Shown: piece by piece, positions 7,021 to 61,474 of the stretch
Layout: each line of letters opens with the position of its first letter
Position numbering within the stretch: the stretch's first letter is position 1
Assembly: GCF_002915175.1 (NCBI RefSeq)
Contig: NZ_NXEJ01000007.1
Coordinates: forward strand, 124,285-188,284
Reading direction: 5' to 3'
Source of the DNA: Agrobacterium rosae
GTDB taxonomy: Bacteria; Pseudomonadota; Alphaproteobacteria; Rhizobiales; Rhizobiaceae
DNA length: 64,000 nt
Position numbers and translations under genes: made by a program
Notes under the pieces: model-generated
The model's database searches: none
The model's input: the letters and a program-made list of their open reading frames with translations, nothing else
Told to the model about the DNA's origin: nothing

Positions 7021-7851
7021 ATGGCAGGCACGAACAGCGAGCTTCAGCTTTTGGCGGAAGGCCCGGCGATCATTTTGGTCGAACCTCAACTCGGTGAAAA
7101 CATCGGCATGGTGGCGCGTGCCATGGCCAATTTCGGCCTGGCCGAGCTTCGGCTGGTCAACCCGCGGGATGGCTGGCCAAGCGAGAAGGCGCGCTCTGCC
7201 GCATCGAAGGCCGATCATGTCATCGATCGCACGCGGGTTTTTGACACGATCGAAGAAGCGACCGCCGATCTGCAATTTACCTATGCGACGACGGCGCGAG
7301 AACGTTACGGTTTCAAGCCGGTGCGTGCGCCTGTCGTTGCAGCCGAAACCCTGCGGACAAAATTCAAATCCGGCGAAAAGACCGGCATCCTCTTTGGTCG
7401 CGAACGTTGGGGCCTGACCAATGAAGAGGTGGCGCTGGCTGACGAGATCGTAACCTTTCCGGTCAACCCGGCCTTTGCCTCGCTCAATATTGCGCAAGCC
7501 GTGCTGCTGATGTCCTATGAGTGGATGAAGTCCAGCATCGAGGATTTGAGCGAAACCTTGTTTGAGCCTCTGGAGCAGCAACAGGCAACGAAGGAACAGC
7601 TTTATGGGCTGTTCGACCAGTTGGAAGAGGCGTTGGACGCGCGGGGCTACTTCCGCCCAGAAGGCAAGAAGCAGCGCATGATCGAGAACCTGCGAGCCGT
7701 TCTGTCGCGCCGAGCGCTGACGTCGCAGGAAATCAGTGTATTGCGCGGCGTGTTCGGTACCTTCGACAAATACGGTCGGCAGACGCCGCGTGGCAGTAAT
7801 GGTCCTTATGCCGAGGGGAGCACGAAGGAAGATGACGGCGATAACGCGTGA
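7021..7851 (+). CDS. trmJ: tRNA (cytidine/uridine-2'-O-)-methyltransferase TrmJ
   Basis: TrmJ is a SpoU-class (trefoil-knot) methyltransferase that uses SAM to 2'-O-methylate position 32 of tRNAs. The 276-residue protein shows motif 1 ([21 protein letters not shown]), motif 2 ([15 protein letters not shown]) and motif 3 ([19 protein letters not shown]), with the basic C-terminal extension typical of TrmJ. The ATG at 7021 has GGAAGG upstream; an ATG at 6988 is less well placed. Its last 20 bases overlap murI, which suggests translational coupling. The exact tRNA substrate is inferred from family membership. Confidence 0.88.
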
Positions 7852-8659
7852 TTCCGTAGACACACTCAAACCGGTGCTTCTTCTCGATAGCGGCATCGGT
7901 GGTTTGACCGTTCTGCGTGAGGCGAGGGTACTGATGCCCGAGCGGAGCTTTATCTACGTCGCCGATGATGCTGGCTTTCCCTATGGCGGGTGGGAAGAAA
8001 GCGCGCTGACGGAGCGGCTTCTTTCGCTGTTCGCACGGTTGATCGAGACCCATAATCCAGAAATCTGCATTGTTGCCTGCAATACGGCCTTTACGCTGGC
8101 AGGTGCGGCTTTGCGGGCAGAGTTTCCAGATATGACGTTTGTGGGCACCGTTCCCGCCATCAAGCCGGCGGCGGAGCGCACCCGTTCCGGCCTCGTCTCG
8201 GTTCTGGCCACGCCCGGCACTGTCAAGCGTGCCTATACGCGTGATCTCATCCAGTCCTTCGCCTCGCAATGCCATGTGCGCCTTGTGGGGTCTGAGAACC
8301 TTGCGCGCATGGCGGAAGCGTGGATCAGAGGCGAGCCGATTTCCGATGAGGCCGTTCTGGCGGAAATTTCGCCCTGCTTTATCGAGGAGGCGGGCCGGCG
8401 CACGGATATCGTCGTGCTGGCCTGTACGCACTATCCCTTCATGGCAAATGTCTTCCGCCGCCTTGCGCCATGGCCGGTGGATTGGCTGGACCCGGCAGAG
8501 GCGATTGCCCGGCAGGCGCGGCGAAAGGTCGAGTTGGTCGAGGGTGTGGAGCACCCGGATGGTTTCGACATCGCGATTTTCACATCCGGCCAGCCGGATT
8601 TCAACACGCGACGCCTGATGCAAGGCTTCGGTTTGAGAATCGCCGCTCCAGCACCGTGA
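7832..8659 (+). CDS. murI: Glutamate racemase
   Basis: MurI makes D-glutamate for peptidoglycan in the cytoplasm. The 275-residue protein has [15 protein letters not shown] at the N-terminus, the first catalytic cysteine in IVACNTA and the second in [10 protein letters not shown]. The ATG at 7832 has AAGGAAG upstream and lies inside the end of trmJ, in another frame; upstream alternatives would extend far into trmJ. Both catalytic cysteines are intact. Confidence 0.95.
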
Positions 8660-8779
8660 GTGTTGTATTTCTGCATTATTCTTGAATATCGGTTGCAATT
8701 CGAGATTGAACCTCTTGTTTTGCGAAAAAAGCTGTGGCACAAAACTCAAGCTCGCAACTCAAACATCAGGAGGCGTCTA

Positions 8780-8869
8780 ATGACTACATTTATGCATACA
8801 CGCCTTTCTGGCGCAGCACGTAAGATGGTACCGGTCCTTACCGGAATTATTGTACCATCCTACCGATAA
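8780..8869 (+). CDS. Putative 29-residue small protein upstream of the DUF1127 gene
   Basis: A very strong ribosome site, AGGAGG, lies 6 bases before the ATG. The 29-residue product is basic and starts MTTFMHTRLSGAARKMVPV; it has no signal peptide and only a short hydrophobic run near its end (VPVLTGIIVP). It occupies the 368-base gap between murI and the DUF1127 gene, 158 bases before the latter. It could be a small protein or a translated leader. Support comes from the ribosome site only. Confidence 0.45.
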   Translation: MTTFMHTRLSGAARKMVPVLTGIIVPSYR

Positions 8870-8993
8870 AGGTCTGTCAATCCGGCCTTTTCTCTGCCTA
8901 TAGGCATTTCACACACTAACTCGTCGCAAACGCCTCTGTCGTCGCATATCTGCGCGTCCGTCGCTTTTGCGCGTCTTTTCCATCACGAAAGGA

Positions 8994-9016
8994 CCTGGTC
9001 GCTTGATCGCGCCAGG
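8994..9016 (+). promoter_or_regulatory. Hairpin overlapping the DUF1127 ribosome binding site
   Basis: CCTGG-T-CGC, loop TTGATC, GCG-CCAGG forms an 8-pair stem with one bulge. The last bases of the 3' arm (AGG) are part of the AGGACGG that should serve as Shine-Dalgarno for the ATG at 9028. It could limit translation until opened. No trigger is visible. Confidence 0.45.
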
Positions 9017-9027
9017 ACGGATTTCCT

Positions 9028-9264
9028 ATGTCTCATGAACAATCTTTGCGTGTAAATGATGTTTCGAAAGCAGTTGATGATCTGTTCCAGCACTTCGGTG
9101 TATGGACGACATTCAAAGCCATGCTGGTCGTTGCCTGGAAACACCGGCAGGCAAGAGTGCATGTCTCGCACCTGTCGGATCACATGTTGCGTGACATCGG
9201 CCTTCCAGTCAGCAAATATCGGTCTGAAAAGCCGTTGATACCCCCCTGGGTCCCACGCTTTTGA
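9028..9264 (+). CDS. DUF1127 domain small protein
   Basis: This 78-residue protein carries a DUF1127 motif at about residues 35-60 (hydrophobic/basic helix, then LSDHMLRDIGLP). DUF1127 proteins are small, arginine-rich or basic proteins common in alphaproteobacteria, and several have been tied to stress, phosphate or RNA-related functions. This one is longer than the minimal 45-50 residue members because of an N-terminal extension. A hairpin overlaps its ribosome site and a terminator-like hairpin follows its stop. Function is not known from sequence. Confidence 0.8.
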   Translation: MSHEQSLRVNDVSKAVDDLFQHFGVWTTFKAMLVVAWKHRQARVHVSHLSDHMLRDIGLPVSKYRSEKPLIPPWVPRF

Positions 9265-9271
9265 GGGGATC

Positions 9272-9306
9272 GCCTCCTCGGCAGTCATTCTGCCGGGGAG
9301 GCTTTC
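9272..9306 (+). terminator. Terminator-like hairpin after the DUF1127 gene
   Basis: GCCTCCTCGGCAG pairs with CTGCCGGGGAGGC (one mismatch) around the loop TCATT, and TTTC follows. The U-tract is short, so termination may be partial. Confidence 0.6.
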
Positions 9307-9337
9307 AAGTGATGAAGCCGAAGTTTTGAGATTATCT

Positions 9338-9853
9338 ATGCAGATTTCCATACACAAATTGTCTGCCTCAGACGCTAACGACTATCGCGACCTTCGTCTG
9401 GAAGGCTTGGTTGCTCATCCGGAAGCCTTCGGAGCTTCGTTTGAAGATGAGGCCGTGTTGTCGGTCAATGATTTCGCTCAACGCCTCGACCAGGGAAACG
9501 TTTTTGGCGCTCGCCGCACCGATACGAATGCTTTGGTGGGAGCCGTGGGCCTTCGCATCTCGACGGCCTCGAAGACCAGACATAAAGGTGCGATCTGGGG
9601 CATGTATGTGCGACCAGAGACGCGCGGCTCGGGCATCGGTGCTGCTCTCATCAAACACGCACTGGACTATGCCAAGCCGCTTGTTGAAGAGGTGACCATC
9701 ATCGTCGGAGCATCGAATATTGCCGCCCACAAACTCTATATCAAGATGGGGTTCGAGCAGTATGGATTTGAACGGCGGGCGTTGAAAATCGGGCAAACCT
9801 ATTACGATGAGGTGCTGATGGCGGTGGTTCTCAATCCGCCCACCGGGCAGTGA
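9338..9853 (+). CDS. GNAT family N-acetyltransferase
   Basis: This 171-residue cytosolic GNAT protein has the acetyl-CoA pyrophosphate-binding motif A at about residue 95-110 (GMYVRPETRGSGIGAALI), with the R-x-x-G-x-G/A pattern intact, and motif B near NIAAHKLYIKMGFEQYG. The substrate cannot be predicted. The ATG at 9338 has only a weak ribosome site; a TTG at 9326 in the same frame is an alternative. It stands alone between the DUF1127 gene and a LysE exporter. Confidence 0.85.
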   Translation: MQISIHKLSASDANDYRDLRLEGLVAHPEAFGASFEDEAVLSVNDFAQRLDQGNVFGARRTDTNALVGAVGLRISTASKTRHKGAIWGMYVRPETRGSGIGAALIKHALDYAKPLVEEVTIIVGASNIAAHKLYIKMGFEQYGFERRALKIGQTYYDEVLMAVVLNPPTGQ

Positions 9854-9934: not shown

Positions 9935-10567
9935 ATGCCGATTGAAAACTGGCTGGCCTTCGTGGCCGCATCCGCTGTTATGCTCGCCATTCCCGGGCCG
10001 ACGATCCTGCTGGTTATCTCCTATGCGCTCGGCCATGGCCGCAAGGCGAGTTCGGCGACGGTTGCTGGTGTGGCGCTGGGCGATTTTACCGCGATGACGG
10101 CGTCCATGCTGGGGCTGGGCGCGCTACTGGCAACATCGGCGGCTCTGTTCACGGTGCTCAAATGGGTTGGTGCCGCCTATCTGATTTATCTCGGTATCAA
10201 GTTGTGGCGTGCGCCGGCGGGCGGCGAGGGAGCTCCAGAAAATGCTACGGCCAAGGAACGGCCGCTTAAAATCTTCCTGCACACCTATATCGTCACGGCC
10301 TTGAACCCCAAGAGCATCATCTTCTTCGTGGCCTTCCTGCCGCAGTTTTTGACGCCATCGCTGCCATTCTGGCCGCAGGTGATGATCTTCGAAGTGACGT
10401 TCCTTGTGCTTGCCACCTGCAACGCGGCCCTTTATGGGTTGCTGGCAAGTGCGGCCCGCAATTCCATTCGCAAGCCAAAAGTCCAGCGCATCGTCAACCG
10501 TACAGGCGGCAGTCTGTTGATCGGGGCTGGCCTGTTGACCATGGGTTGGAAGCGCGCCGCCGGTTAA
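9935..10567 (+). CDS. LysE/RhtB family amino acid exporter
   Basis: This 210-residue inner-membrane protein of the LysE superfamily exports amino acids or related small molecules. It has about six hydrophobic segments. The N-terminal family signature is clear (AIPGPTILLVISYALGHG at about residues 19-36), as is the mid-protein ALNPKSIIFFVAFLPQF. The ATG at 9935 follows AAGGGG; an earlier in-frame ATG at 9893 lacks a ribosome site. The neighbouring EamA-type gene is another efflux protein, so both may export amino-acid metabolites. Confidence 0.9.
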   Translation: MPIENWLAFVAASAVMLAIPGPTILLVISYALGHGRKASSATVAGVALGDFTAMTASMLGLGALLATSAALFTVLKWVGAAYLIYLGIKLWRAPAGGEGAPENATAKERPLKIFLHTYIVTALNPKSIIFFVAFLPQFLTPSLPFWPQVMIFEVTFLVLATCNAALYGLLASAARNSIRKPKVQRIVNRTGGSLLIGAGLLTMGWKRAAG

Positions 10568-14165: not shown

Positions 14166-14368
14166 GAGTCAACCTTTGGCCGGACGAGGTTGGCTTTACG
14201 GATGGGGAACGCATGACAGAAATAAACGTGGCCCCAACCTTTAAAAACTCGACATCGCGTATTGTCCGGTAATACGCCAGAGGGGCCCGAGTTCTGATCA
14301 CGGACGGGAAATAATGTGGCGCAACTGCATTTCAAGGGTGATAGCGATAAAAAATGAGATAGGCGTGT

Positions 14369-34461: not shown

Positions 34462-35391
34462 ATGTTGATAACGCGCATCGTCCTGGCGTTCGAAAACTTT
34501 CGCCAGTGGCTGAATGCGACGATTGCGTTTAGTGTTCTGAACCTGTTGAAGCTTTTGCCAGCCGATCCTGCCATCCGGTTTGCGGACAGGCTTGCCCGCA
34601 AGATCGGCCCTAAAACGCCACGCCACAAGCTGATGCTCTACAATCTCGAGCGCGCCTTTCCCGAGAAATCGGAAGCGGAGCGTATGGAGATTGCGCTGGA
34701 TAGCTGGGGCAATATGGGACGCCTGGCTGCGGAATATGTTTTCCTCGATCGCCTATTCGATTTCGATCCGGCACAGGACAAGCCGGGCCGTGTCGAAGTC
34801 GTTGGCACAGAGACGTTTCTCGAACTGAGAGACAATCCGCGCCCCTTCATCGTGTTCACTGCGCATTCGGGTAACTTCGAGCTGCTTCCGGTTGCAGGCT
34901 CGGCGTTCGGGCTGGATGTGACGGTGCTGTTTCGCCCGCCGAACAATCCCTATGTCGCGAAACGCATTTTCGATTTCCGCAAGGAGCGTATGGGCAACCT
35001 CGTTCCGTCTCACGCCGGTTCGTCCTTTGCTCTGGCGCGGCAATTGGAAAAAGGGGGCGGTATTGGCGTTCTGGTTGACCAGAAGTTTAGAAAAGGCCTG
35101 CCGACGCAATTCTTCGGCAACGACGTTTTGACCAACCCCTTGCTGGCAAAGCTGGTGCGGCAATTCGGCTGCGATGTGTTTCCGGCGCGTTGCATCCGTC
35201 TGCCGGATAATCGTTACCGGCTGGAAATCGAGCCCAAGGTCGAGATACCGTTGAACGAAAAAGGCTCTGTCGATGTGCAGAAGACGGCACAACTGCTCAA
35301 TGACAAGGTCGAGAGTTGGGTGCGAGAATATCCCGGACAATGGTTGTGGTATCACGACCGTTGGCATATCAAACGTCATATCAAGGACTAG
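34462..35391 (+). CDS. lpxXL: Very-long-chain acyltransferase LpxXL
   Basis: LpxXL transfers the 27-hydroxyoctacosanoyl chain from AcpXL to lipid A at the inner membrane. The 309-residue protein is of the LpxL/HtrB family: a short hydrophobic N-terminus and the H-x4-E catalytic motif in FTAHSGNFELLPVAG near residue 133. VLVDQKFRKGLPTQFFG and WLWYHDRWHIKRH follow. ATG 34462 has no good ribosome site; TTG 34456 gives MKMLITRIV and is a real alternative. Last gene of the cluster, 11 bases after adh2XL. Confidence 0.93.
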   Translation: MLITRIVLAFENFRQWLNATIAFSVLNLLKLLPADPAIRFADRLARKIGPKTPRHKLMLYNLERAFPEKSEAERMEIALDSWGNMGRLAAEYVFLDRLFDFDPAQDKPGRVEVVGTETFLELRDNPRPFIVFTAHSGNFELLPVAGSAFGLDVTVLFRPPNNPYVAKRIFDFRKERMGNLVPSHAGSSFALARQLEKGGGIGVLVDQKFRKGLPTQFFGNDVLTNPLLAKLVRQFGCDVFPARCIRLPDNRYRLEIEPKVEIPLNEKGSVDVQKTAQLLNDKVESWVREYPGQWLWYHDRWHIKRHIKD

Positions 35392-35433
35392 AATAGGATC
35401 GTTCTGATTCATTGAAAGCGATAACATCTCAGG

Positions 35434-35461
35434 ATTGTGAATGTATAATGTTCTTCACAAT
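35434..35461. promoter_or_regulatory. Inverted repeat around a -10 box upstream of the first PAS gene
   Basis: ATTGTGAA and TTCACAAT are perfectly inverted, 12 bases apart, and the spacer contains TATAAT (35444-35449). No good -35 box is visible at the right distance. The arrangement fits an operator over a promoter. It lies 173 bases before the TTG start at 35634, in an AT-rich gap (35392-35633). Confidence 0.45.
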
Positions 35462-35633
35462 TTCTGGGATTTGTTAAAGCCGTCCTGCGTGTGTTAATTT
35501 ATCTTGTGTAATGGCGGTGCTGTTTCTCGTTACGTCATTTTTTACGGTGATACCCTATAACGAGTCTCGTGCCGCTTGGCCGGAATGTATTTGAAAGTGC
35601 GAGTGGCGCACGATCATCCGGGGGAGAGTCGAG

Positions 35634-36326
35634 TTGAAAGCTTTGATTGACTTGTTCTGGCAACGATATTCGGAGCTGAAAGGCGCCGTGGATCGCAACG
35701 ACGCCCCGAAAATTGCGATCCTTGATCGTGAGCTAGATGCCTTGCTTGAAAGCATAACGAGCAGAAAAACCAAGACCACGTCTGAGGTTCTTGAGCAGTT
35801 CCGCTTTGCGATCGATCTCCTTAATGAAGAGGCGGAGGACACCGGCTGCGTTCAGCGCAATTCCGAACTCTTGCGCCGGTTGGTGGACAGGTACATCGGT
35901 GCTGGTCTGCCATATGATGGCGTGACGCCCGATGGCGAAGCTGCGACATGGAGCCCTTACGTCATTCTTGACGAAGATCGGTTGGATGATCTGGATGAAC
36001 GCGTCTTCGTGGTTTCACCCGGTTATCGGATCAACTACACCAATGCCATCAATGCGCTGTGCTACGAGGCCAAAACCAACGATCTCGTTGGGCGGCATAT
36101 CGCCGAATTCATCGGCATACATCATTTCCAGCAAGCGCTGCGCGAAAAGCTCGACGCATGCTTTAAGGGGCAGGCCGCAAAATACACCTATGCGGAAGAC
36201 ATTGATGGGCACACAGTGGTGCGCTCTTATGAAATGTCGCCTTGTTACTCCCCGTCCTATAAGCTCGTTGGCGCAATTATAATCGTAAAAGAACTGGCCG
36301 ACCGTCGTCATCGGGCCGTGGCATAA
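35634..36326 (+). CDS. Standalone PAS-domain protein, tandem copy 1
   Basis: A 230-residue soluble protein with an N-terminal helical region (ALIDLFWQRYSELKGAVDRN, then LDRELDALLESI) and a C-terminal PAS-like domain from about residue 115 (VFVVSPGYRINYTNAINALC, then VGRHIAEFIGIHHFQ). It has no kinase, cyclase or DNA-binding output domain. The 253-codon neighbour shares the whole layout, so the two are tandem paralogues. Translation starts at TTG behind GGGGGAGAG. It likely senses a ligand or redox state and passes the signal to a partner; this is inference. Confidence 0.8.
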   Translation: MKALIDLFWQRYSELKGAVDRNDAPKIAILDRELDALLESITSRKTKTTSEVLEQFRFAIDLLNEEAEDTGCVQRNSELLRRLVDRYIGAGLPYDGVTPDGEAATWSPYVILDEDRLDDLDERVFVVSPGYRINYTNAINALCYEAKTNDLVGRHIAEFIGIHHFQQALREKLDACFKGQAAKYTYAEDIDGHTVVRSYEMSPCYSPSYKLVGAIIIVKELADRRHRAVA

Positions 36327-36922
36327 GGCAGTCTGGGTATTCCAGTCTCCAACCGACCACTTTGTCCGCTACCGTACCATGTCTTTTGACATGCCAGAAA
36401 TGAGATAGGGTGGGAGTTCGATGTCGATCTTTTCGACGTCGCGACGGGGTTTAGAAGCGCAGTATTTATCTGGCCAAGTCTGATCTCTAGTCAAGATCAC
36501 CTTTATTCACCAAAGAAAAACCGATGAATAATGCCATACATTCACGCTTATTGTAAACGATTACATCTTTGTTATTTGCAGTATTGATGGGTGCCATTTA
36601 CCGCGTCTTCGGGTCTAATAGCGTAACGGCAGAGTGATAATCATATAACAAATGTTAATGACCTACGCACGGATAGGTTAAATCTCGTGTATTGACGAAA
36701 TGGACAACGATAGTGTTCATATCTCAGAACAATGTAGTTTCATGGGTAGCTCATATTCGGATCATAGATGTCTCTTTGGCCTCATCGATACGGCAGCCCG
36801 TGGACCCAAAGTTAAAATGATCTGAGCCTGCTTCGGCAACGGTTTTTGAAAGAAGGAGGTTTTCCTGATCGTGTCCGGCACAATGATTGGACAGTGTCAG
36901 AATGGGAAACCTGTGTGATGAA
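36327..36922. other. Long AT-rich intergenic region between the two PAS genes
   Basis: About 600 bases, clearly poorer in GC than the rest of the window. I see no ORF with family-like sequence. It contains a possible -35 TTGACG at 36692 with a poor -10, several A/T runs, and an unusually strong AAGGAGG at 36853-36859 that is too far from the PAS start. It is a likely regulatory region or a decayed sequence. Confidence 0.5.
36871..36918 (+). CDS. Possible 15-codon leader ORF
   Basis: GTG 36871 lies 11 bases after AAGGAGG and opens a 15-codon frame whose TGA stop is 4 bases before the ATG of the second PAS gene. It could couple translation of that gene. The product is too short to judge and the spacing to the ribosome site is long. 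Confidence 0.2.
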   Translation: MSGTMIGQCQNGKPV

Positions 36923-37648
36923 ATGGAGGCTCCATTGATTGGGCTCTTCGACGCCTTTTCGCTGAAATGCACGCAGTTGAAACAGGCTGTGGCCGGTGGT
37001 CATGACGATCTTGTGCGTGTGCTGGATCGAGAACTTCAGCCGATGATCGCGGGTATCCTGTCATATAGGGCAGAAACCCGCGAGGAAGTGCATATGCAGT
37101 TGCAGTTCCTCAACAGTTTGATCCGCGACGAGGCCGAAGATAAATCAAGCGTTACGCGCCGTAGTGCTGACATGTCGATGCTGATCGATCGTTATTTCCC
37201 CAATTCGAGCGGCAAGGGTGATCGCATCCAACGTCCGACATTACGGCCGACTGATGAGAACGCTGTATTCGAGATGCCGAACCAGCCTCTGTTCAATGAG
37301 GCTGTGCTGGATAGTTTGCCGGATCGCATTGGCGTCGTCACCAAGGATTATCGCTATCTGTATGCCAATCAGGCAAACGCGCAGTATTTGAACCGCACCG
37401 CGCTATCCATGATTGGCTGTCATGTTTCGGAGTTTGTGGGGGAGGAAAGCTTCAGGACCATGGCCCAGCCAGCGTTCGAAAAATGCTTTCACGGTCATAA
37501 GGTCGACTACATCCACAAGGGACGTCGCGATTCCTGCAGTTTCACAACCCGTTGCCGCATGACGCCATTGCGTGGTGGAAACAATAAGATTGTCGGCGCT
37601 GTCATCGTTCTCCAAAGCGTTGATGAAGTCGCCCTGAACTGCAATTGA
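36923..37648 (+). CDS. Standalone PAS-domain protein, tandem copy 2
   Basis: A 241-residue paralogue of the preceding PAS protein: N-terminal helices (PLIGLFDAFSLKCTQLKQAV then VLDRELQPMIAGI) and a C-terminal PAS fold (LPDRIGVVTKDYRYLYANQA, MIGCHVSEFVGEESF, IVGAVIVLQSV). ATG 36923 is chosen because its product aligns with the start of copy 1; TTG 36887 and ATG 36902 lie upstream in frame. No output domain follows. It ends 4 bases before the convergent permease gene. Confidence 0.75.
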   Translation: MEAPLIGLFDAFSLKCTQLKQAVAGGHDDLVRVLDRELQPMIAGILSYRAETREEVHMQLQFLNSLIRDEAEDKSSVTRRSADMSMLIDRYFPNSSGKGDRIQRPTLRPTDENAVFEMPNQPLFNEAVLDSLPDRIGVVTKDYRYLYANQANAQYLNRTALSMIGCHVSEFVGEESFRTMAQPAFEKCFHGHKVDYIHKGRRDSCSFTTRCRMTPLRGGNNKIVGAVIVLQSVDEVALNCN

Positions 37649-37652
37649 GGGC

Positions 37653-38465
37653 CTAGCCGCCCGTAAGACTTGCGAAGAATGAGCCCACCGCAGAGACGGC
37701 ACCGGCGTCCAGAAGCAGTTTCGTCGCCATTGCTAGGCATGAGATCACCAGCAGAGGCCGAATGATTTTTGCGCCGTTGTTCATGGCAAGTCGCGAACCC
37801 ATCTGCGCGCCCAGAAACTGCCCCAAACCCATGACCAGTCCCAGCTTCCATAAGATTGCGCCGCTGAGTGTAAAGACGAGGAAGCCGCCGAAGTTCGAGC
37901 CGAGGTTGAGAAGCTTGGTGTGAGCCGTTGCCTTCAACATACCGAAGCCCGCCAACCCGACAAATGCCAGCATGTAAAACGAACCGGCCCCTGGCCCGAA
38001 AATGCCATCGTAGAAACCCACCAGTGGAACGACGGTCAGGCCGAATACGAGGGGCCTTACGCGTTGGTGACTATCCAGATCGCTGAGGTTGGGTTTGAAG
38101 GCAAAATAAAGGGCTATCGCGATCAGCAAAAACGGCATGATGGCTCGCAGAACATCAGGCGGCACGAACGACGCCGTCAAGGCCCCGAAGACACCGCCTA
38201 AGAGTGCCATCATTGCCATGGGGAATTGCTTTTTTAGGTCCACATGGCCTCGACGCGCGTAGGCGATGGTGGCTGATGCCGAGCCGAACTGCGCCTGCAA
38301 TTTGTTCGTTCCCAAAACCTCAAGCGGCGGAACGCCCAGGATGAGCATGGCAGGGATGACGATCAACCCGCCACCACCGGCAATCGAATCCACAAAGCCT
38401 GCGAAAATGGCCACCAGAAAAAGGATGAGAAAAAGCTGAAGAGCGACATCGTGCACGGGGAGCAT
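37653..38465 (-). CDS. TauE/SafE family sulfite exporter-like permease
   Basis: A 270-residue inner-membrane protein with about eight hydrophobic segments and the TauE/SafE repeats: FAGFVDSIAGGGGLIVIPAM near residue 20-40 and GFYDGIFGPGAGSFYMLAF near 150. Family members export sulfite, sulfoacetate or other organosulfonates; the substrate is not evident. It is convergent with the second PAS gene with a 4-base gap, and divergent from the nucleoside hydrolase gene (167 bases). Confidence 0.88.
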   Translation of the reverse strand: MLPVHDVALQLFLILFLVAIFAGFVDSIAGGGGLIVIPAMLILGVPPLEVLGTNKLQAQFGSASATIAYARRGHVDLKKQFPMAMMALLGGVFGALTASFVPPDVLRAIMPFLLIAIALYFAFKPNLSDLDSHQRVRPLVFGLTVVPLVGFYDGIFGPGAGSFYMLAFVGLAGFGMLKATAHTKLLNLGSNFGGFLVFTLSGAILWKLGLVMGLGQFLGAQMGSRLAMNNGAKIIRPLLVISCLAMATKLLLDAGAVSAVGSFFASLTGG

Positions 38466-60429: not shown

Positions 60430-60544
60430 AAGGTGTCCTCCATTGTGCAGGGAGAATGCGGTAACGGGGTGGAGGGTTCCGGCATCAATTGGCAAATGAC
60501 ACGGGATTGTCTTGCTTCTTCGCGTTTGCCTCGCGATAACGCCT

Positions 60545-61474
<930 letters not shown>

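Follow-up and report, generated by a model that had tools for sequence, protein, structure and literature searches.

By analogy, the nearest working precedent for the 2 proteins described here, which we call PAS1 and PAS2, is MopJ (CCNA_00999) of Caulobacter crescentus, although MopJ belongs to another PAS family. PMC4432633 describes MopJ as a single-domain PAS protein that acts by contact with DivJ on other regulators, and assigns it to PAS_5 (pfam07310), with a length of 165 residues and a PAS domain that starts at residue 15. Binding to DivJ and polar localisation are traits of the MopJ family. Like PAS1 and PAS2, MopJ is a small alphaproteobacterial PAS protein without an output domain, but none of the 35 PAS1/PAS2-family members analyzed matches PAS_5 (PF07310) at E ≤ 0.01. 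The genome that bears PAS1 and PAS2 has a single, separate PAS_5 match of the MopJ type (G000:C18:289401-289811, L162). The PAS_4 (PF08448) parts of larger proteins belong to the same domain family as the PAS domains of PAS1 and PAS2, and profile matches outside their own family lie nearly all in long frames; PAS1 and PAS2, in contrast, pair the PAS domain with an N-terminal helical module only. PAS sensor kinases and cyclases carry an output domain on the same chain, whereas PAS1 and PAS2 have no such match over the cut-off. PAS sensors of the haem (FixL-like), LOV, and PYP types have an invariant cofactor residue. In the PAS1/PAS2 family, no His or Cys occupies an invariant or near-invariant column of the 35 aligned sequences, and there is therefore no sign of a bound cofactor. 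Literature searches, with most subscription journals outside their coverage, found no paper on this family, in agreement with an earlier note on this DNA that had proposed an undescribed signalling unit. SMc04267 was considered as the S. meliloti counterpart and rejected, this gene being described in PMC5498481 as an LPS sulfotransferase.

PAS1 and PAS2 are encoded in a stretch of DNA of 64,000 nucleotides (hereafter the window), which also holds a VLCFA lipid A cluster with FabA-like, ketoacyl synthase, alcohol dehydrogenase, and lipid A acyltransferase genes. The last gene of this cluster, lpxXL, ends at 35391, and the region that follows it contains these features:

34462-35391, + strand: lpxXL, with an in-frame ATG at 34462 (Pfam Lip_A_acyltrans, E 1.4e-41)
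35434-35461, no strand assigned: perfect inverted repeat ATTGTGAA-N12-TTCACAAT, which frames TATAAT at 35444-35449 and is kept only in close relatives
35471-35500, + strand: promoter-like element of PAS1 (TTGTTA, 18 nt, TAATTT), conserved, with a weak consensus match
35530-35542, + strand: conserved element TTACGTCATTTTT, between the promoter-like element and PAS1, found with at most one mismatch in 26 of the 31 genus genomes
35634-36326, + strand: PAS1, 230 aa, TTG start with GGGGGAG upstream, helical module and PAS fold
36378-36393, no strand assigned: palindrome CATGTC-TTTT-GACATG (CATGTCTTTTGACATG), just 3' of PAS1, operator- or hairpin-like
36690-36720, + strand: conserved element TATTGAC-N14-TAGTGTTCAT, upstream of PAS2, a candidate promoter or operator
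36853-36859, + strand: AAGGAGG, too far from the likely PAS2 starts for a ribosome site
36935-37648, + strand: PAS2, 237 aa from TTG 36935, a paralogue with the same architecture
37653-38465, - strand: TauE/SafE-type permease, the convergent neighbour of PAS2 (Pfam TauE, E 2.7e-50)

The gap between lpxXL and PAS1 measures 242 nt. That between PAS1 and PAS2, previously described as about 600 AT-rich bases, measures 608 nt and has 44.4% G+C, against 56.5% for the whole window. An Rfam scan of the window gave 2 matches, a terC RNA at 14240-14298 (- strand, 45.3 bits) and a Cobalamin riboswitch at 60533-60713 (+ strand, 117.8 bits), and none within 35-38 kb.

Both open reading frames are present and paralogous (29% identity over 229 columns, E 2e-31) and their first 89 residues are 36% identical, which agrees with the initial description of 2 standalone PAS proteins with a shared helical N-terminus and no output domain. 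Each protein is predicted to begin with approximately 89 helical residues, which a linker of variable sequence joins to a PAS fold; in PAS1, the helical module comprises residues 1-89 and the PAS fold approximately residues 112-222. PAS2 scores above the Pfam cut-off for PAS_4 (39.2 bits versus 23.1) and above that for PAS, whereas PAS1 falls below the PAS_4 cut-off (19.4 bits versus 23.1). All 35 family members matched PAS_4 at E ≤ 0.01. Outside the PAS families, these 35 members (8 Pfam families matched) produced just 3 weak matches, each in one member, and no kinase, cyclase, DNA-binding, or other output domain was found over the cut-off in PAS1, PAS2, or the 35 members. We also modelled PAS1 (mean pLDDT 69.8) and its helical module alone (76.6, pTM 0.71), using 4-row alignments that gave models of moderate quality. 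Four helices were predicted in the PAS1 model (residues 2-20, 24-43, 49-68, and 77-89). The predicted fold of PAS1 had 351 PDB matches at E ≤ 0.001, and the 50 of these shown are, judging in part from their titles, PAS, LOV, or PYP proteins. PDB sequence searches with PAS1 and PAS2 singly returned nothing at E ≤ 1, and a search with the family profile returned mostly PAS proteins together with one designed TIM barrel among 33 rows. The model of the helical module had no PDB match at E ≤ 0.001, and its VIA-align rows resemble generic helical bundles. The flagellar chaperones FliT and FliS, which are small helical bundles, were among its weak fold matches (Z 5.5 and 5.0); this resemblance was not significant (Foldseek E 0.97 or worse, with Z values usual for unrelated bundles).

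On balance, PAS1 and PAS2 are probably soluble, stand-alone PAS sensor-adaptors that act by protein contact. An output by contact is proposed because no kinase, DNA-binding, or other output domain was recognized in them. In such a mechanism, the C-terminal PAS domain would detect a partner or a small cue in the cytosol, and the N-terminal four-helix module would relay the state of the PAS domain by protein contact. PAS1 would be the conserved core of the system and PAS2 an ancient paralogue, kept in some lineages and diverging faster. The domain layout is directly supported by the analyses above, as are the conservation, purifying selection, old duplication, and lpxXL linkage by those that follow, and we infer solubility, signalling, and contact-based output.

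A search for the pair in other genomes showed that these genes are no rare accident. PAS1 was present in all 37 genus genomes examined and PAS2 in 16 of them, the other 21 having no PAS2 counterpart. As a unit the pair fared less well: the genes are conserved, but the pair is not the conserved unit, because PAS1 occurs in every genus genome examined, where it alone is universal, and 42 of the 51 family-sample carriers of the full architecture have a single copy (9 have 2). These 51 carriers, out of 247 genomes in the family sample, were defined by module matches in open frames of 224-338 residues, a definition under which G080, with a protein of 216 aa that does contain a PAS domain, is not counted. 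The helical module by itself matched 64 of the 247 genomes. At E ≤ 0.001, PAS1 had matches in 51 and PAS2 in 58 of them, the weakest matches being PAS parts of long proteins. In the class sample, the module was found in one of 337 genomes, which was the window's own. The full profile, when searched against the order sample, gave matches beyond the own family that are PAS parts of other open frames, almost all of which are longer; a possible exception is G530, where profile positions 22-222 matched a 311-aa open reading frame with no searched cluster gene near it. In the plasmid collection, a PAS gene was detected on one Shinella record, which is 4.6 Mb long and almost unannotated. From this record, we take the bacterial family that bears these genes to be the Rhizobiaceae.

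The earlier note missed the fixed place of the PAS gene behind lpxXL. In 38 of the 51 carriers, the PAS gene follows lpxXL directly and in the same orientation, 102-522 nt past the last lpxXL match. An upstream lpxXL on the same strand was found at 38 of 39 family-sample loci and at all 31 genus loci examined (synteny was analyzed in 31 of the 37 genus genomes). Such a position would be expected if PAS1 specifically regulated VLCFA lipid A synthesis, or the attendant envelope stress, an alternative that we consider possible although unlikely. In its favour, a search for downstream neighbours of the window, TauE included, found none of them at 6 lpxXL-PAS loci of other genera (L112, L114, L115, L116, L131, and L132; 12-16 kb). 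Four of the 13 carriers with another arrangement also fit this alternative: in 3 of them (L113, L123, and L124) the PAS gene is located downstream of an fnr-type gene, with approximately 3 kb between it and the far end of the cluster, and in one it is located beside fabZ (L125). The remaining 9 have the PAS gene behind hemN near fnr (L129 and L130) or elsewhere (7 carriers). Moreover, at L144 (4514-4870, genome G172) a 118-aa open reading frame that contains the module without PAS lies directly behind lpxXL, a place taken by the full protein in G069, a genus-mate of G172. Therefore, the module is linked to lpxXL no less than the PAS domain is. Against a dedicated lipid A regulator, PAS1 has a conserved element of its own in the 242-nt gap, no cluster gene was found within approximately 7 kb in 9 of the 51 genomes (at L129, only a distant dehydrogenase match was found), and linkage alone shows no function. 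Furthermore, Atu1592 of A. fabrum C58, which by gene order (L118) would be the PAS1 orthologue, is reported in PMC11901934 as a separate unit that is not co-transcribed with the cluster. Any envelope link is one that we infer, and the fixed linkage to lpxXL may indicate a more specific role than that of a free adaptor.

A regulation of its own had been proposed for the pair, and this was partly sustained: conserved elements precede each gene and the flanks are AT-rich, but the role of TATAAT as a promoter is weakened. The inverted repeat does frame this box upstream of PAS1, as the earlier note described. When the 242-nt region was shuffled 2000 times with dinucleotides preserved, 109 of the shuffles contained an 8-bp repeat with a gap of 3-25 nt, and the repeat is by itself mildly unusual, not very improbable. 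The 5.46-Mb genome contains a single perfect copy of it and one other site with 2 mismatches, and no regulon for the repeat was found in the genome. Among 31 genus genomes, the repeat is present in 10, of which 7 have it in perfect form and 3 with pairing at 7 of the 8 arm positions; the best match in the other 21 has at least 4 mismatches. At L011, the innermost pair is altered on both sides with pairing retained. From this pattern, the repeat would be a local operator at most. With ATAACA 17 nt before it, TATAAT agrees with the consensus at 10 of 12 bases and ranks first among the sigma-70-like sites of the region, in a scan of 35300-37700 that gave 4 promoter-like sites versus 3.0 in shuffles. 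However, of the 10 repeat carriers only the window has TATAAT, the others having TATATT (5), CATATT (2), TATTTT (1), or CACCTT (1). This weakens the promoter reading and does not refute it, because TATATT could still work as a box in those 5 relatives. The promoter-like element at 35471-35500 is conserved more widely than the inverted repeat and is weaker than TATAAT by consensus, its hexamers fitting at 4 of 6 and 3 of 6 bases, and it is absent from the promoter scan list. Its counterpart TTGAAA-N18-TATTTT occurs unchanged in 15 of the 16 single-copy species and with one mismatch in the other. Among the 15 pair species, TTGTTA-N18-TAATTT has 0-2 mismatches in 11 and 3 in 2, and was not found in 2.

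In the PAS1-PAS2 gap, the palindrome after PAS1 (ATGTCTTTTGACAT) has 0-2 mismatches in 9 of the 15 pair species. Its core has one exact copy in the genome and one more with 1 mismatch, and the genome search found no regulon for it. For the element at 36690-36720, 11 of these species show 0-3 mismatches and the remaining 4 show 4-5. AAGGAGG does precede PAS2, as had been noted, but a role as a start signal does not follow, since it ends 63 nt before the in-frame ATG 36923. An AAGGA-like stretch is present in several of the nearest relatives with no start at a fixed distance after it, judging the alignment by eye. A short open reading frame after AAGGAGG (GTG 36871) was considered and rejected, as by eye it is not kept in the alignment of the relatives. 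GGAGG at 36925-36929 sits 5 bases before TTG 36935 of PAS2; alternative in-frame starts are ATG 36923, TTG 36887, and ATG 36902, and the alignment indicates that translation in some relatives must begin at the equivalent of ATG 36923. Of the 52 sequences closer to PAS1, 51 have TTG at the aligned start position, as do 19 of the 35 closer to PAS2, and ATG was the start in all 15 control adh genes. The TTG starts may reflect modest translation by design. Judging from the conserved elements, PAS1 and PAS2 are probably transcribed apart from lpxXL, each with its own element.

The occurrence of short open reading frames that carry the helical module without a PAS domain suggests that the module can work alone. 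We examined 12 module-only loci, excluding L156, which has a PAS domain, and leaving out the open reading frames of L148. In 3 of these loci, the module-only frame is near LuxR-type genes (L151, 4927-5238; L152, 5020-5295; L155, 4671-5153), in surroundings that we take to be flagellar. Besides, in G193 (L127) a GerE-domain gene at 7741-8571 has the PAS protein (8601-9503) behind it on the same strand, at 29-101 nt depending on the start chosen, with a module-only frame nearby at 10145-10507. These arrangements would fit a module that is a partner of LuxR-type regulators, PAS1 and PAS2 being sensory versions of a LuxR modulator. We regard this as very unlikely: the module matches at the 3 loci are modest (E 5e-9, 4e-7, and 1e-5), the other 9 module-only loci have no such neighbour among their listed open reading frames, and none is beside the genes of the window.

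That PAS1 takes part in oxygen control, alongside hemN and a regulator of the FNR type, is highly doubtful. In several genera (L113, L123, L124, L129, L130, and L090), fnr-type and hemN genes lie next to the cluster or to the PAS gene, and an FNR-like box with one mismatch occurs in 3 upstream regions (L037, L041, and L083) versus none in shuffles. However, FNR boxes are not enriched overall, the best match having at least 3 mismatches in 79 of 87 upstream regions versus 72 of 87 single-base shuffles, and there is no hemN or fnr match within the window. Separately, a palindrome, AAGCGCTT, which we assume to resemble a LacI-family operator, was observed 113-144 nt before the PAS gene start in 10 of the 87 upstream regions, from several genera (L037, L044, L045, L050, L051, L054, L055, L057, L059, and L090), and not at L001, the locus of the window.

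The proposal that PAS1 and PAS2 arose by duplication followed by divergence was borne out by a midpoint-rooted tree of 75 sequences, from which L004, L005, L007, L008, L023, loci that were duplicates or nearly identical, and the majority of the single-copy loci of the genus were omitted. One clade (97/92) unites all 17 first copies with 29 of the 34 single copies and 2 ligA-like-adjacent copies; the name ligA, like some other neighbour gene names at family loci, is our assumption. None of the 17 second copies falls inside this clade. They come from 3 genera and are weakly ordered outside it, and L129, L127, L089, and L087 have long branches, so that their place is unsure. With the root unsure, a duplication older than the genus followed by repeated loss looks like the simplest reading. 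We then compared substitution rates between the locus of the window (L001) and 10 of the 14 pair-bearing relatives, in which many dS values exceed 1 and the ratios are therefore rough. For PAS1, dN/dS was 0.018-0.061 (9 finite of 10), with 0.020-0.046 in 5 further pairs; for PAS2 it was 0.098-0.155 (8 finite of 10), with 0.071-0.138 in 3 further PAS2-classed pairs; for lpxXL it was 0.026-0.047 where dS was finite. By these ratios, PAS1 appears to be under strong purifying selection and PAS2 to evolve faster. That the pair is a decaying duplicate without function, a reading already disfavoured, is barely credible: the 21 genus genomes without PAS2, its faster evolution, and the lost PAS part at L144 would agree with decay, but the PAS1 and PAS2 matches in the 37 genus genomes contain no internal stops and dN/dS is far below 1 for both genes.

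The sensor-adaptor reading can be extended to a signalling family, confined to one bacterial family and combining PAS with a helical module that no other class-sample genome has, that would couple a cytosolic cue to the state of the VLCFA outer membrane, with PAS1 and PAS2, in lineages that retain both, forming a hetero-oligomer in which the faster-evolving PAS2 would tune the input; we consider this extension quite unlikely as a whole. MopJ demonstrates that a PAS protein lacking an output domain can direct a regulatory network. PAS1 and PAS2 represent a second alphaproteobacterial family of output-less PAS proteins, unrelated to MopJ and with a helical module of its own. In many genera, this family has stayed next to the final gene for lipid A VLCFA synthesis. 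Should the envelope be its target, the family would give a testable entry point to the way in which these soil- and plant-associated bacteria adapt their outer membrane.
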